Assembly (NCBI GenBank): GCA_030696845.1
Contig: JAUYRJ010000040.1
Location: forward strand, 1-62,907
Source of the DNA: Polynucleobacter sp.
Lineage (GTDB): Bacteria; Pseudomonadota; Gammaproteobacteria; Burkholderiales; Burkholderiaceae
Direction of reading: 5' to 3'
DNA length: 62,907 nt
Part shown: one piece after another, positions 45,631 through 51,523 of the stretch
Layout: each line of letters starts with the position of its first letter
Numbering within the stretch: the stretch's first letter is position 1
Program-made: the position numbers and the translations under genes
Notes under the pieces: generated by a model
What the model saw: the letters and a program-made list of their open reading frames with translations, nothing else
Told to the model about the DNA's origin: nothing
The model's database searches: none

Positions 45631-46500
45631 ATGCAAGGTGTACAAAACGTATTTCGTTCGCTCGGTTTGGCGATGGTTGGCACCATGCACCCTCGGATGC
45701 TGTGGCTCAGCTTTCGCCCGTTTTTAATTGTCTCTATTTTCTGGGGAATTTTAATTTGGCTGATTTGGTCGCCAGCACTAGATCATTTGCGCATTTTTCT
45801 AACCACGTCGATCTTTACGAGCTGGATTCAGACAGTACTTAGCTGGGTTGGTCTTGATGAGGCGCGCGCCTGGATCGCCCCCTTGTTTTTGGTGATGCTG
45901 CTCATCCCGCTCATCGCAATTAGCCTGCTCGTGTTCATTGCCTTCTCCACTGTTCCCGCAATCGTGAATAGTGTCATGCGGCAGGGCGCTTATCATGGGA
46001 TTGAGGCGGTTGGTGGCAGTGGATTGATTGGGAGTTTTTTTTACACCATTTGGTCTGCGCTGATTTGTTTAGCCCTCATTATGCTCACCTTGCCTGTGTG
46101 GTGGATTCCGCCATTAGTTGCGATATTGCCGCCACTTTTATGGGGCTGGCTAACCATGCGTCTCATGTCCTATGACGTACTCGCAAAACACGCCAGCTCA
46201 GCAGAGCGGGATTTATTACTAGAGCGTTATCGCTGGGAGCTCTTGGGCATGGGGGTTGCTGCAGGGATGCTGGGCGCCGTACCCACCTTCTTTTGGGCGA
46301 CGTCAGCTTTGGCTTTAGTCCTGTTTCCATTTGTGAGTTTTGTCGCCCTGTGGATCTATTCCATTATTTTTGTATTTGCAGCGCTCTGGTTCGCGCATTT
46401 TTTACTGAGCGCCTTAAAAGAGTTGCGCGCGGAAGGGTTGGCTAAGGCGCCTCAAATCCATCACGAAGTCGTCGACATGGAGCCAGTTCAACATGACTGA
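45631..46500 (+). CDS. EI24 domain-containing membrane protein
   Basis: A 289-residue protein with about six hydrophobic segments, including PFLIVSIFWGILIWLIW, LFLVMLLIPLIAISLLVFIAF and FVSFVALWIYSIIFVFAALW. The order and the N-terminal FRSLGLAM pattern match the EI24 (CysZ-like) family. E. coli CysZ takes up sulfate, but many betaproteobacterial members are uncharacterised. It overlaps the following gene by eight bases. Confidence 0.8.
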   Translation: MQGVQNVFRSLGLAMVGTMHPRMLWLSFRPFLIVSIFWGILIWLIWSPALDHLRIFLTTSIFTSWIQTVLSWVGLDEARAWIAPLFLVMLLIPLIAISLLVFIAFSTVPAIVNSVMRQGAYHGIEAVGGSGLIGSFFYTIWSALICLALIMLTLPVWWIPPLVAILPPLLWGWLTMRLMSYDVLAKHASSAERDLLLERYRWELLGMGVAAGMLGAVPTFFWATSALALVLFPFVSFVALWIYSIIFVFAALWFAHFLLSALKELRAEGLAKAPQIHHEVVDMEPVQHD

Positions 46501-47332
46501 CGCGAAGCGCTTGCCAGCGGTAAGGCGATTTGGTCTCATTGTGATTGGCGATGAAATCCTTTCAGGCCGTCGTCAGGATAAGCACCTCAGTAAATTAATT
46601 GAGCTATTAAAAGAGCGGGGTCTGAGTTTGTCGTGGGCAAGGTACGTTGGCGACGATCCCGAGCAGATTGTGCAGTGTTTGCGCGAAACCTTTGCCAGCG
46701 GCGATGTGGTGTTTAGTACTGGTGGCATTGGCGCTACGCCGGATGATCACACTCGCGCTTGCGCAGCAAAGGCCTTGAGCCTTTCTACTGTATTGCATCC
46801 AGAAGCGAAAGAATTGATCGCCAAGCGGATTGTGGCAATGGCTGAAGGTGATTTAGCTAAGGCGGATTTATCTACCCCCGAGAATCAGCATCGCTTCAAA
46901 ATGGGGGAGTTTCCCGAGGGTTCTGAGATTATTCCTAACCCGTACAACCAGATTCCAGGGTTTCGGATTCGGGAGCACCATTTCTTTCCTGGCTTCCCGG
47001 TAATGGCTGCGCCCATGATGGCGTGGTGCCTTGATCAGCATTACGCGGATTTATTCCACCAAGAAAACTGGCTTGAGAAAAGTTTTATCGTCCCCGAAGG
47101 GATTGAGTCCCGCTTAACGCCTCTTATGGAGCAGATCGAGGCAGACTTTGAGGGTGTGAAAGTGTTTAGTTTGCCGTCAGTGGGTGACCCCGCTCGCGGT
47201 GGCGTATTTGCGCGACGCCACATTGAATTGGGTGTTAAAGGGCGCTCGGATTCGGTGCAATTGGCTTGGGATGCCTTACGAAAGGGCACTCTCGCTTTAA
47301 ATTATCCGATTCATGACCTTATTAAGCACTAA
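46493..47332 (+). CDS. molybdopterin-binding / CinA N-terminal domain protein
   Basis: A stand-alone MoCF_biosynth domain protein of 279 residues. GDEILSGRRQDKHLSKLIELLKERGL at the N-terminus and STGGIGATPDDHT near residue 80 are family signatures shared with CinA. The C-terminal nicotinamide-nucleotide amidase (PncC) domain of full CinA is absent. Homologues in Burkholderiales are annotated as competence/damage-inducible protein A, but the function is unproved. Its stop codon lies inside the first NtrC-type dyad of the glnA control region. Confidence 0.85.
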   Translation: MTDAKRLPAVRRFGLIVIGDEILSGRRQDKHLSKLIELLKERGLSLSWARYVGDDPEQIVQCLRETFASGDVVFSTGGIGATPDDHTRACAAKALSLSTVLHPEAKELIAKRIVAMAEGDLAKADLSTPENQHRFKMGEFPEGSEIIPNPYNQIPGFRIREHHFFPGFPVMAAPMMAWCLDQHYADLFHQENWLEKSFIVPEGIESRLTPLMEQIEADFEGVKVFSLPSVGDPARGGVFARRHIELGVKGRSDSVQLAWDALRKGTLALNYPIHDLIKH

Positions 47333-47340
47333 TATGGTGC
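47326..47340. promoter_or_regulatory. NtrC-type binding dyad, site 1
   Basis: GCAC-N7-GTGC matches the core of the NtrC consensus. It overlaps the stop codon of the upstream gene and is centred at 47333, 42 bp from site 2 (four helical turns). It lies about 175 bases before glnA. Confidence 0.65.
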
Positions 47341-47347
47341 ATTAGTA

Positions 47348-47359
47348 GGTTTATAAACC
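47348..47359. promoter_or_regulatory. 12-bp perfect palindrome between the two NtrC-type sites
   Basis: GGTTTATAAACC is centred at 47353.5, almost exactly midway between the two dyads. It could bind another factor or be chance. Confidence 0.35.
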
Positions 47360-47367
47360 CATTTTAA

Positions 47368-47382
47368 GCACCGAAATAGTGC
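47368..47382. promoter_or_regulatory. NtrC-type binding dyad, site 2
   Basis: A second GCAC-N7-GTGC centred at 47375. A degenerate GG-N10-GC arrangement at 47389-47402 is the only sigma-54-like candidate nearby; a TTTTTA-N17-TACATT pair (47391-47419) is an equally weak sigma-70-type alternative. Confidence 0.65.
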
Positions 47383-47507
47383 AATAATGGTTTTTAAATG
47401 GCCTGGCTTTCGGTACATTACTTACATAGAACCGGTGTTGTTTACAGGCGATATCTAGACATGCCTGTCACCACAGAATACGAATTCATTTTATTGAGGA
47501 GAATTGC

Positions 47508-48923
47508 ATGACAAAAACCGTCGCCGATGTAATGAAGTTGGTTAAAGAAAAAGAGTGCACCTTTGTGGACTTTCGCTTTGTTGATACCAAAGGTAAAGAG
47601 CAACATACCACCGTGCCCATTTCCCACTTCGATGAAGATAAATTTGAGAGTGGTCATGCATTCGACGGCTCGTCGATTGCTGGTTGGAAGGGTATTGAGG
47701 CATCCGATATGCTCTTGATGCCAGATCCAACAGCAGCCTACATTGATCCGTTTTATGAAGAGCCAACCCTCGTTATTACGTGCGATGTCATTGAGCCATC
47801 GGATGGTAAAGGGTATGACCGTGATCCACGCTCGATTGCTAAACGTGCCGAAGCCTATTTAAAGGGAACCGGCCTTGGAGATACCGCTTTCTTTGGTCCA
47901 GAGCCAGAGTTCTTTATTTTCGACGGCGTGCGTTGGGGCGCTGATATGCAGGGTTGCTTTGTTAAGGTAGAGTCGGAAGAGGCTCCTTGGTCATCATCGG
48001 CTGAAATCGAGGGCGGTAACACTGGCCATCGTCCAGGAAAAAAAGGTGGTTATTTCCCGGTAGCGCCTGTTGATACATTCCAGGACATGCGCTCAGAGAT
48101 GTGTTTGATTCTGGAGTCCTTGGGCATCCCTGTTGAGGTGCACCACCACGAAGTGGCTGGTCAAGGTCAAAATGAACTGGGAACCCGATTCAGTACATTA
48201 ACGCAACGTGCTGATTGGACCATTTGGCAAAAGTACGTAGTGCAAAACGTTGCGCATGCGTATGGCAAGACAGCCACTTTCATGCCTAAGCCAATCGTTG
48301 GTGATAACGGTTCTGGTATGCACGTTCATCAATCCATTTGGAAAAATGGCGAGAACTTATTTGCGGGTAATGGTTACGCTGGCTTATCTGAATTTGCGTT
48401 GTTCTACATCGGCGGCATCATTAAGCACGCCAAGGCGCTCAATGCGATTACCAATCCAGGCACCAATTCATACAAACGTTTGGTCCCTGGCTTTGAGGCT
48501 CCAGTCAAATTGGCTTACTCAGCCCGCAATCGCTCCGCTTCGATTCGTATTCCGCACGTTTCGAATCCGAAGGGTCGTCGCATTGAAACGCGCTTCCCTG
48601 ATCCATTGGCTAACCCTTACTTGTGCTTCTCTGCTTTAATGATGGCGGGTCTTGATGGCGTACAAAATAAGATTCACCCAGGTGAAGCGGCTGACAAAAA
48701 CTTGTATGATTTGCCGCCAGAAGAAGACGCAAAGATTCCAACCGTGTGCCATAGCTTAGATCAGGCCCTGGACTGCTTGGATAAGGATCGCGAATTCTTA
48801 ACTCGCGGCGGAGTGTTTACGAACTCGATGTTAGATGCCTATATCGATTTGAAGATGGAGGAAGTGACGCGTTTCCGCATGACTACCCATCCAATCGAAT
48901 TCGATATGTACTACTCACTCTAA
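47508..48923 (+). CDS. glnA: type I glutamine synthetase (GSI-beta)
   Basis: Assimilates ammonia into glutamine; dodecameric. [17 protein letters not shown] is near residue 50, [14 protein letters not shown] near 265, and [12 protein letters not shown] near 345. The adenylylation site is intact (NLYDLPPEE, Tyr near 400), so GlnE control is expected. Length 471 is standard. A strong GAGGAGA ribosome-binding site precedes the ATG. Upstream are two NtrC-type dyads; downstream are ntrB and ntrC. Confidence 0.97.
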
Positions 48924-48938: not shown

Positions 48939-50072
48939 TTGAGCGCAGGTCTGTTGCGCAATTCGTTCAAAGGGGCAGCTTCGGCTGCCCCTTTTGTTCC
49001 GAATTTGCTTGATCAATTACCCAATGCCGTCATTGTGTTTGATGGCGTAACGAAGCTGTTGTTCTATGCGAACCCGGCGGCGGAGTCGGCGCTTGACCTC
49101 TCGCGCAAGGTCATTGAGGGTCATCTTCTAAGTGAATTATTCGCAGAAAATAACGCTTTAAACCAGATGATTGCCGAGGTGACAGATGGTGTTACAGCTG
49201 CCCAGCGGCAAGAAATGGTCTTGCACGTTTTGCCAAATGCCATTCATCACGAGGCCAGTGCTGCCCATGTAGTTATTGCGCTGCTGGAGGATCCCGCGTT
49301 AGTCATGATGGAGTGGTTTCCAATTGATCAACAATTGCGCAGCGAACGCGATGAGCGCGTTACGCAGCAAGTCGAGGCTAATAAGCAGCTGATGCGGAAT
49401 TTGGCTCATGAAATTAAAAATCCTCTGGGCGGCATTCGGGGGGCGGCCCAGCTACTGGAATTTGAGCTGCCTGAGAAGGGTTTGCGTGAGTACACCCAAG
49501 TGATCATCAAAGAATCGGATCGGTTGCAGGGCTTGGTTGATCGGCTTCTAGCGCCGCACCGAAAAGCGCATACGGTGGAGTTAGTCAATGTCCATGAAGC
49601 ATTAGAGCGGGTTCGAAGTTTGGTGCTCGCTGAGTTTCCTAAAGGATTGCGGATTAATCGCAATTACGATACAAGCTTACCCGATATCTTGGGCGATAAA
49701 GAGCAGCTAATTCAGGCGGTATTAAATATTGCCCATAACGCTGCGCAGGCATTATCGGAAGAGATTCGCCGCGGTAGCGCTGTGATTGAGTTGCGTACGC
49801 GAGTGGCGCGTTCGGTAACCATTGCAAAGCAGCGATATAAGTTAGCCTTGGATTTACATGTGATTGATAACGGACCCGGAATTCCAGATGATATTCGGGA
49901 TCGCATTTTTTTTCCGCTGGTCAGTGGCAGAGAAGGTGGCAGTGGATTGGGTTTGACCTTAGCGCAAACCTTTATCCAACAACACCAAGGATTTATTGCT
50001 TGTGAAAGTCGCCCAGGCAATACTGATTTTCATATTCAAATACCGTATCGTACGCAGGAGATATCCGCATGA
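48939..50072 (+). CDS. ntrB: nitrogen regulation sensor kinase NtrB (GlnL)
   Basis: Cytosolic kinase/phosphatase that sets NtrC phosphorylation in response to PII. A PAS domain starts near residue 24 (LLDQLPNAVIVFDG). The H-box NLAHEIKNPLGGIRGAAQLL is near residue 155; the ATPase motifs NIAHNAAQAL, DNGPGIPDD and SGREGGSGLGLTLA follow. Length 377. TTG 48939 is chosen because AAGGAG lies just ahead. With that start, a terminator hairpin falls within codons 11-19; a later TTG near 49007 would exclude it. It overlaps ntrC by four bases. Confidence 0.93.
   Translation: MSAGLLRNSFKGAASAAPFVPNLLDQLPNAVIVFDGVTKLLFYANPAAESALDLSRKVIEGHLLSELFAENNALNQMIAEVTDGVTAAQRQEMVLHVLPNAIHHEASAAHVVIALLEDPALVMMEWFPIDQQLRSERDERVTQQVEANKQLMRNLAHEIKNPLGGIRGAAQLLEFELPEKGLREYTQVIIKESDRLQGLVDRLLAPHRKAHTVELVNVHEALERVRSLVLAEFPKGLRINRNYDTSLPDILGDKEQLIQAVLNIAHNAAQALSEEIRRGSAVIELRTRVARSVTIAKQRYKLALDLHVIDNGPGIPDDIRDRIFFPLVSGREGGSGLGLTLAQTFIQQHQGFIACESRPGNTDFHIQIPYRTQEISA
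48969..48995 (+). terminator. UUCG-loop terminator hairpin in the ntrB 5' coding region
   Basis: A perfect 11-bp stem (AAAGGGGCAGC with GCTGCCCCTTT) closes on a C(TTCG)G loop, the extra-stable tetraloop, and is followed by TTTT-G-TT. It sits 46 bases after the glnA stop. By appearance it is an intrinsic terminator that would reduce ntrBC expression relative to glnA. Confidence 0.8.
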
Positions 50073-51523
50073 ATAAATCAGTTTGGATCGTAGATGATGA
50101 CCAGTCCATTCGTTGGGTTTTGGAAAAAGCTTTAACTAGAGAAAACCTCTCACATCGTAGTTTTACTAATCCGAATGATGTGCTCAATGCGCTAGAGCGC
50201 GAATCCCCACAGGTATTGATTTCAGACATTCGCATGCCGCGAGGAAGTGGTCTTGATCTTTTGCAGCACGTTAAAGCAAGCCACCCTCATTTGCCTGTTA
50301 TCGTGATGACGGCATACTCCGATTTAGATTCAGCGGTATCTTCTTTTCAGAGCGGCGCATTTGAATACCTCACCAAGCCATTTGATTTAGATAGGGCGAT
50401 TGAACTCATTCGCCGGGCTATTGGGGAGAGCGAGCGTGCGCAGTCGGTCGCCAAAGAGCCGCGCTACTGGCAACAAGAAACCCCAGAAATTATTGGTCAA
50501 GCCCCCGCGATGCAGGAAGTCTTTAGAGCGATTGGCAGGCTTGCTCAATCGCATGCCACGGTACTGATTACGGGTGAGTCGGGTACAGGCAAAGAGCTTG
50601 TGGCGAGAGCCTTACATAAGCATAGTCCGCGAGCCAAAGGCGCTTTTGTGACTCTAAATACAACAGCGATTCCTAAGGAGTTGTTGGAGTCGGAATTATT
50701 TGGCCACGAACGCGGGGCTGTGCCAGGCGCGCAAACCCTCCGGCGTGGACGTTTTGAGCAGGCTGATGGTGGCACCTTATTCTTGGATGAAATAGGCGAC
50801 ATGCCGTTTGATTTGCAAACCCGTTTGCTGCGCGTATTAACGGATGGGCATTTTTATCGCATTGGCGGCCACGATCCAATACGCGCTAATGTGCGCATTA
50901 TTGCTGCCACCTATCAAAATCTTGAGTCGCGTGTCAGTGCCGGCCTTTTTAGGGAGGATCTTTTGCATCGCTTAAATGTGATTCGCCTGCGTTTGCCTGC
51001 ATTGCGTGAGCGAGTCGAGGATATTCCCTTGCTTGCACGGCATTTTATGCAAAGTTGTGCCAAGAACTTAGGTGTTGAGCCAAAGCGATTATCCGATGCG
51101 GCGCTAGTGGAGATAGCTCATAAGCCCTTTTCAGGAAATGTACGCCAACTGGAGAATCTTTGTCATTGGTTAACGGTCATGTCGCCGGCTGTTGAAATCG
51201 GCGTTAGCGATCTCCCTGCTGACTTGGCTACTGAAACCGCAAGTGCCGCTCCCCATCCTGCACTCGCCCCCCAGGCTGCGGCTATAACCCCCGCCAAAAT
51301 CGCCTCTGGGGATTGGGAAGGGACTCTTGGCCGACTTGCTGTCAAAATGCTGCAGGATGGCGATAAACAGGTTTTTGATGCGCTGACCTCTCGTTTTGAA
51401 AAGGTGGTGTTACAGGCCGCCCTCGAGGTGACTCGAGGCAGGCGGGTGGAGGCCGCGCAGCGCTTGGGTATTGGCCGCAATACAATTACCCGTAAATTAC
51501 AGGAATTAGGTATTGATGACTGA
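50069..51523 (+). CDS. ntrC: nitrogen regulation response regulator NtrC (GlnG), variant GAFTGA loop
   Basis: Enhancer-binding AAA+ activator. The receiver domain has the phospho-acceptor Asp53 (SDIRMP) and a Lys in LTKPFD. Walker A GESGTGKE is at residues 169-176, and LFLDEIGDMP is Walker B. The sigma-54 contact loop, GAFTGA in E. coli NtrC, reads GAVPGA at residues 216-221 (50714-50731), although flanking residues are conserved. The Fis-type helix-turn-helix is at the C-terminus (RRVEAAQRLGIGRNTITRKLQ). Length 484. It overlaps ntrB by four bases and xth by eight. Confidence 0.94.
   Translation: MNKSVWIVDDDQSIRWVLEKALTRENLSHRSFTNPNDVLNALERESPQVLISDIRMPRGSGLDLLQHVKASHPHLPVIVMTAYSDLDSAVSSFQSGAFEYLTKPFDLDRAIELIRRAIGESERAQSVAKEPRYWQQETPEIIGQAPAMQEVFRAIGRLAQSHATVLITGESGTGKELVARALHKHSPRAKGAFVTLNTTAIPKELLESELFGHERGAVPGAQTLRRGRFEQADGGTLFLDEIGDMPFDLQTRLLRVLTDGHFYRIGGHDPIRANVRIIAATYQNLESRVSAGLFREDLLHRLNVIRLRLPALRERVEDIPLLARHFMQSCAKNLGVEPKRLSDAALVEIAHKPFSGNVRQLENLCHWLTVMSPAVEIGVSDLPADLATETASAAPHPALAPQAAAITPAKIASGDWEGTLGRLAVKMLQDGDKQVFDALTSRFEKVVLQAALEVTRGRRVEAAQRLGIGRNTITRKLQELGIDD

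Follow-up and report, generated by a model that had tools for sequence, protein, structure and literature searches.

Paired NtrC-type sites upstream of glnA in Polynucleobacter, at a promoter that probably no longer uses sigma-54

In enterobacteria, glnA has paired NtrC sites at the promoters glnAp1 and glnAp2, and the NtrC of Escherichia coli represses glnAp1. According to passages of PMC10274813, which cites Bowman and Kranz (1998), the NtrC proteins of Rhodobacter capsulatus and Caulobacter are bEBPs that lack the GAFTGA motif and act at sigma-70 promoters. The regulators TyrR, DhaR, HupR, and VpsR likewise have a broken GAFTGA, and the relevant section of Francke et al. (PMC3162934) presents the first three as shown to be sigma-70 dependent and gives proline at position 4 as a frequent feature of defective loops. 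The same Thr-to-Pro change as the one reported below yields an inactive NifA in B. japonicum, as stated in an excerpt of PMC4641369. NtrC proteins without GAFTGA that act at sigma-70 promoters are, as such, already known; a stepwise uncoupling of NtrC from sigma-54 in Betaproteobacteria was not found described in a full-text literature search (judged by titles and abstract openings, with most subscription journals outside its scope).

The locus described here lies in a window of 62,907 bases (the whole stretch of DNA analyzed) from a Polynucleobacter genome, G000, of 1.95 Mb and 99% completeness. A cinA/moaB-like gene (46493-47332, stop codon at 47330-47332) is followed, after a gap of 175 bases, by the plus-strand genes glnA (47508..48923; glutamine synthetase type I, 471 aa; TIGR00653, 660 bits against a cut-off of 429), ntrB (glnL; sensor kinase, 48939..50072; NF008293, 314 bits against 240), and ntrC (glnG; response regulator, 50069..51523; TIGR01818, 665 bits against 558.6). 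The closest named relatives of the window NtrC are from Polynucleobacter, including a P. meluiroseus MAG at 86%. Its residues 216-221 (50714..50731, plus strand) read GAVPGA in place of the sigma-54-contacting GAFTGA, a substitution of the same length, and the receiver Asp and the HTH are kept.

As at enterobacterial glnA, paired GCAC-N7-GTGC dyads lie upstream and the gene order is glnA-ntrB-ntrC, but the sites sit closer to the predicted start (-51 and -93), and the remaining canonical traits of sigma-54-dependent control of glnA by NtrC, namely GAFTGA, RpoN, and a -24/-12 element, are absent from the window and from G000. With the R. capsulatus and Caulobacter kind, as portrayed in the passages of PMC10274813 that treat it, the locus shares an NtrB-NtrC pair, a kept receiver Asp and HTH, the loss of GAFTGA, and control of nitrogen genes without sigma-54, predicted here from NtrC-type sites at a nitrogen gene that has no -24/-12. 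The examples in those passages have a loop 1 deletion and belong to the Alphaproteobacteria, whereas the change here is mostly Thr-to-Pro and the genus belongs to the Betaproteobacteria; the deletion is not present in the window NtrC, and we do not hold it to define the kind. Also unlike those examples, no rpoN was found in 73 of the 96 tree rows of the window's clade (clade C, below), intermediates survive in the same genus, and the Walker B Asp is lost in about half of the proteins. The difference from TyrR, DhaR, HupR, and VpsR is that the protein here is an orthologous NtrC still encoded in the glnA operon.

Two putative NtrC sites, both perfect plus-strand dyads, are held in the gap before glnA together with the upstream stop codon: a distal one, GCACTAATATGGTGC (47326..47340, centre 47333), which overlaps that codon, and a proximal one, GCACCGAAATAGTGC (47368..47382, centre 47375), near -51 of the predicted start. 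A sequence scan bears out the original prediction of two GCAC-N7-GTGC matches 42 bp apart, and these are the two perfect matches of the entire window. Dinucleotide shuffles of the window are expected to hold 1.29 perfect dyads, and 42 of 100 shuffles contain at least two, so a lone dyad carries little meaning. Across its 1.95 Mb, the G000 genome has 21 (4 for the reversed-pattern control), several of them inside coding frames. At this genomic density, two dyads in the 175-bp gap have P ~1.5e-6, and the pair does not arise by chance.

Relationships within the genus were taken from a FastTree tree with local support, built on GlnA and NtrC from 135 rows after removal of the loop columns; it left out G129 and rows without both proteins and kept the NtrC of G023, with one stop, by placing X at the stop. 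In this tree, GAFTGA is the loop of an outgroup (7 rows) and of clade A (11), whereas the loop of clade B (9) is either GAFTGA or GSFTGA. Clade D (12, on a long branch) has GAFANA and similar loops, and clade C (96, with the window inside) has an rpoN of some kind in 23 rows and none found in 73. Support is 99 for B+C, 93 for C, and 85 for the place of D; the position of D and the branching inside C are not firm. GAFTGA occurs in 67/67 outgroup NtrCs and 11/11 clade-A rows and is kept by none of the 96 clade-C tree rows; a Thr-to-Pro change marks 89 of the 106 rows of the clade-C class, which includes one clade-A row (G142). The clade-C strains Polynucleobacter sp. 80A-SIGWE and Tro8-14-1, both in culture, have GAFPGA. 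Among 138 genomes, the loops GAFTGA and GSFTGA are found in 21 with rpoN and 0 without, and other loops in 32 with and 85 without; two losses of GAFTGA suffice to explain the tree, so this association reflects few events.

Change within NtrC is concentrated in one domain. The 105 clade-C NtrC rows include nine off-tree rows classed by exclusion, among them the decayed ntrC of G129. Of the positions that do not vary outside clade C, 221 in all, clade C has altered 23 (kept in <90%), with 22 in the AAA+ domain, 1 at the edge of the receiver, and 0 in the DNA-binding region (Fisher 8e-4, treating positions as independent). The AAA+ domain has the lowest likeness in clade C (0.872, versus 0.899 and 0.900 for the other domains) and the highest (0.901) in clades A and B. 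The Walker B Asp240 is Gly in 50/105 and kept in 54/105 clade-C rows, the window among the latter, and ATP hydrolysis is probably dispensable in part of the clade. In a small clade (G001, G061, G074, G086, and G147), the loop is replaced by AQFGNT and the Walker B Asp is kept.

We compared the regions upstream of glnA across the genus, leaving out those under 200 (150 for the -24/-12 matrix) or over 400 bases in length. Among 93 clade-C regions, the dyad spacing is 52 bp in 81, 51 bp in 8, and 42 bp in 4 (G074, also of clade C, has a single dyad); in clade B it is 40 bp in 8 regions (with mismatches) and 31 bp in G092; both sets of spacings are near whole helical turns. Among 94 clade-C regions holding GTGCAATAAT, the proximal dyad is perfect in 93, both dyads are perfect in 88, and both are within one mismatch in 93. 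The hexamer AATAAT (47383..47388, plus strand), a candidate for either an alpha-CTD/UP-like contact or the -10 of an overlapping promoter, adjoins the proximal dyad in 94/95 clade-C regions, the exception being G129, and AATAAT, with GTGCAATAAT, is invariant in 92/92 distinct sequences. The combination of dyad and AATAAT occurs in 86 of 121 genus genomes, as a single copy except in G071 and G113, and is absent from the clade-A and clade-D genomes searched and from clade B except G092. In clade D (e.g., L248, L249, L251-L255, and L257-L259), the promoter layout is another one and GAFTGA was lost independently: one dyad lies ~98 bp before glnA, with an inverted repeat after it (CCTTATT...AATAAGG in several).

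Downstream of AATAAT, a second conserved element, TAAATT or TACATT (TAMATT), follows at exactly 25 nt in 92 of 94 clade-C regions, and the remaining two have TAAATT at 24 and 26 nt. In the window it reads TACATT (47414..47419, plus strand; TAAATT in most relatives), a putative -10 of a sigma-70-type promoter with a predicted start near 47426. The fixed dyad spacing and TAMATT distance would place the proximal site at -51 and the distal one at -93 or ~-103. The original prediction had paired TACATT with TTTTTA across 17 bases; the pair is present at 47391-47419 and its -10 half stands at a fixed distance, but TTTTTA (47391..47396) is not conserved. Of the corresponding -35 columns (alignment columns 23-28), the first three show some of the highest variability in the block and the last three are mostly TTC, and we reject TTTTTA as a conserved -35, half its columns being highly variable. 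Scanning against the consensus yields no sigma-70 pair that reaches 9/12.

The 12-bp palindrome between the dyads, GGTTTATAAACC (47348..47359, plus strand; centre 47353.5), is perfect, as had been described, and both dyads are kept in relatives, but the palindrome itself is unconserved among them and is rejected as an operator. As RNA, it folds weakly (-2 kcal/mol, z -0.7). No clear stem is present there in G088. G010 and G069 have a GC-rich stem and a T-run at its position, so the palindrome may form a weak hairpin at the 3' end of the upstream gene. A scan of the window for an intrinsic terminator of that gene (a stem, then a T-run) finds none; T-runs are present in G010 and G069, and the flanks of the distal dyad covary partly in relatives.

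Beyond the promoter, the main clade-C group shows hardly any variation in its glnA leader (-119 to -1; 47427-47507 in the window). This leader contains a GGCAT-N-TGCC stem, and changes at the last pair of the stem preserve pairing in 64/69 (A/G opposite T). An Rfam search with the window leader returns no known RNA family (three matches fall far under the thresholds), and the predicted fold of that leader is no more stable than those of shuffles (z -0.24). From ~-76 to -38, clade-C leaders contain, by eye, a short frame resembling MFDAWNKQGCMP, with stop TAA, TGA, or TAG depending on the genome and with its ATG replaced by ATA in 15/69.

The sigma factor itself is missing from G000: neither an HMM of the sigma-54 DNA-binding domain nor a protein query with the RpoN of G010 finds a match, and on one contig lptB ends 48 bp before hpf, so that the junction is closed. 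The native order lptB-rpoN-hpf is present in six relatives from the order (L005-L009 and L012) and in eight clade-A-type genomes (G005, G009, G027, G029, G032, G065, G109, and G162). All 24 relatives from other families that were searched have rpoN; within the genus, it is detected in 60/151 genomes and 48/117 good ones and was not found in 91/151, counts that may include misses in incomplete genomes, while an ntrC product (E < 1e-100) is found in 144/151. Clade B retains rpoN at the native place in G087 and a native remnant with stops between lptB and hpf in G093 (L314, G093:C1:1762947-1769228).

Where rpoN does occur in clade C, it is mostly of another type. In 23 genomes, including 19 clade-C tree rows, RpoN is a different one that shares 71-100% identity with the G010 protein, and the nine loci read (L279, L298-L301, and L303-L306) are all away from the native place, beside relatives of three G010 genes, including GGDEF and Adhesin_E proteins. 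We therefore reject repeated loss of rpoN after the loss of GAFTGA, given that these 23 rpoN-positive genomes carry a different RpoN, located elsewhere in the nine read. Other RpoNs (42-46% identical to that of G010) are found in G018, G036, G073, and G110 of clade C and in G092 of clade B, and neither lptB nor hpf lies near rpoN in the stretches fetched from G036, G073, G092, and the clade-D genomes G003, G138, and G150 (those from G092 and G150 end ~450 bases after rpoN). A further activator was read in two rpoN-positive genomes of clade C (L280 and L281): G010 encodes a separate activator with GSFTGA ~26 kb from rpoN, its own NtrC loop being GAFQGA, and G036 encodes one with GAFTGA ~18 kb from rpoN, its own NtrC loop being GAFPGA. 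The non-native rpoN copies would be later arrivals with their own activator. G120 carries an additional rpoN (L302), which has 51% identity to the G010 gene product.

Two genomes of 1.7 Mb, G126 and G129 (L393 and L392), have ntrB and ntrC in decay and an open glnA. The distal dyad of G126 is broken and its proximal dyad has one mismatch; G129 has an undamaged distal dyad and a proximal spacer shorter by one base. TAAATT and the leader survive in both genomes. Where ntrC is present, by comparison, 93 of 94 regions have each dyad within one mismatch. Dyad damage thus appears to track ntrC decay (P ~0.001, with just two decayed cases), a trend clear in direction and few in cases.

Few further targets can be shown. 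In G000, gdhA has a perfect dyad (L004 1501-1515) beginning 59 bp upstream, adjoining a -10-like CATAAT, and could be an acquired gene repressed by NtrC, but gdhA occurs in only 1 of 61 genus genomes searched. The gene icd (monomeric isocitrate dehydrogenase) has a perfect dyad 214-218 bp upstream in G000, G010, G069, and G080 (L294 2015-2029; L350-L352), the four members of the window's subclade that were read, and none in the other 26 of the 30 loci examined (from 54 matches). With several dyads inside coding frames, gdhA rare, and the icd dyad limited to one subclade, we reject a wide NtrC regulon.

The absence of rpoN, GAFTGA, and -24/-12, the conservation and phasing of the dyads, AATAAT, and TAMATT, and the dyad damage that accompanies ntrC decay, all read from sequence, lead us to regard it as likely that NtrC acts through both dyads at a glnA promoter that has abandoned sigma-54. 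When nitrogen is limiting, NtrB would phosphorylate NtrC, whose dimers would occupy both dyads on the same face of the DNA, four or five helical turns apart. From the proximal site at -51 and the distal site at -93 (in the window) or ~-103 (in most relatives), NtrC would recruit or stabilize housekeeping RNA polymerase at a promoter combining a poor -35 with the TACATT/TAAATT -10, and AATAAT, lying between NtrC and polymerase, is a possible alpha-CTD contact. Remodelling of sigma-54 would be impossible in G000, since its genome is without rpoN and its NtrC without GAFTGA. The genomes are related, so their counts are not independent events, and against this reading stand the unrecognizable -35 and AATAAT itself, a fair -10 overlapped by the proximal dyad in a manner suiting repression.

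AATAAT is in fact a second candidate -10, conserved as well as TAMATT, and the best rival begins from it: the main start would lie just past AATAAT (~47394-47396, with TGCAATAAT as an extended -10), NtrC would repress there because the proximal dyad overlaps that promoter, and glnA expression would depend on the promoter further downstream or on the distal site acting alone at ~-62/-72. Its strength is that the block GTGCAATAAT is followed by ~5 less conserved bases and then by the conserved leader, and that the gdhA dyad of G000 likewise adjoins its -10-like hexamer. We nonetheless think it unlikely: the -12 position is A rather than T, the sequence 17 bp upstream is GTATTT rather than TTGACA, the +1 is mostly a pyrimidine in relatives, NtrC is expected to induce glnA and not to repress it, and TAMATT, too, stands at a constant distance, 31 bp downstream, and survives where ntrC has decayed. 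The same expectation about the sign of control at glnA tells against a broader version, in which NtrC solely represses sigma-70 promoters (glnA and gdhA), activates nothing, and leaves glnA otherwise constitutive. The loosening of the AAA+ domain with its loss of the Walker B Asp, and the position of the gdhA dyad inside its promoter region, would suit such a regulator; the Walker B Asp kept in the other half of the rows and a phased distal site typical of activators would not, and we judge this version improbable.

Other explanations dispense with NtrC at the dyads or retain sigma-54. The dyads, above all the distal one, could be mainly RNA hairpins at the 3' end of the upstream gene, whose stop codon the distal dyad overlaps; in the window, the distal hairpin reaches -12 kcal/mol (z -2.6), and among 86 distinct sequences, flank positions 3, 4, and 6 pair above any of 500 shuffles, although seven others do not. 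Part of the conservation of the distal dyad may hence be at the RNA level. As a full account, it is very unlikely, because the GCAC/GTGC core stays fixed while the flanks change, the two dyads keep a fixed distance, no extended stem accompanies the proximal dyad in 82/82, outgroup dyads (perfect in 40/53 glnA regions and within one mismatch in 51/53) are mostly at true sigma-54 glnA promoters, and the dyads are damaged in G126 and G129, where ntrC is decayed. Lower still is the credence we give to sigma-54 serving glnA through a degenerate -24/-12, whether at 47389-47402 or in the GGCAT-N-TGCC of relatives. Clade-C AGGCATGTTTGRTGCC does resemble clade-A TGGCATGCTTTGTGCA and is similarly placed, and some rpoN is present in 23/96 clade-C tree rows. 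A matrix built from 51 outgroup sites (outgroup scores are circular, and clade A is the independent test) scores 14.6-18.4 in all 11 clade-A regions, however, and finds no -24/-12 site in clades B, C, and D, with maxima of 5.6 (9 regions), 6.7 (95, window included), and 1.6 (10), near the level of shuffles (95th percentile 3.2-5.9; 99th 4.9-11.9, and 9.3 for C). The matrix also upholds two earlier observations on the window, that there is no good sigma-54 promoter before glnA and that the GG-N10-GC at 47389-47402 lacks the rest of the consensus. GGCAT-N-TGCC is kept much alike in 20 rpoN-positive and 52 rpoN-negative regions and is absent from the window, and the Thr-to-Pro loop change inactivated NifA, as the excerpt of PMC4641369 has it. 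On the matrix scores, an element conserved regardless of rpoN, and the missing rpoN of G000 and much of the genus, we reject such a site.

Working NtrC sites at a promoter freed from sigma-54 therefore remain our preferred reading. The suggestion in the original prediction that the altered NtrC loop fits sigma-70-type control agrees with a loop altered across clade C and a G000 without rpoN, and its overall interpretation is partly supported by the sequence comparison, which upholds the core and fails two details, the -35 and the palindrome.

Clade B lacks -24/-12 and has GAFTGA, so the promoter may have changed first. In the history that this suggests, which we hold to be about evenly balanced between right and wrong, the promoter left sigma-54 first (clade B), GAFTGA and the native rpoN were then lost (clade C), and the AAA+ domain decayed thereafter; NtrC would have become a helix-phased sigma-70 activator that works without ATP hydrolysis, and other RpoNs with intact-loop activators would have entered some genomes later. 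The -24/-12 may have been lost separately in clades B and C, whose two layouts differ except in G092.

NtrC with sigma-54 is the textbook case of enhancer-dependent transcription, and here the pair would be uncoupled in a widespread freshwater genus. NtrC proteins and sites of this type should accordingly not be annotated as sigma-54-dependent. Because intermediates survive, the relative timing of changes in promoter, regulator, and sigma factor is open to test, as is whether an AAA+ activator can become a plain recruiter.
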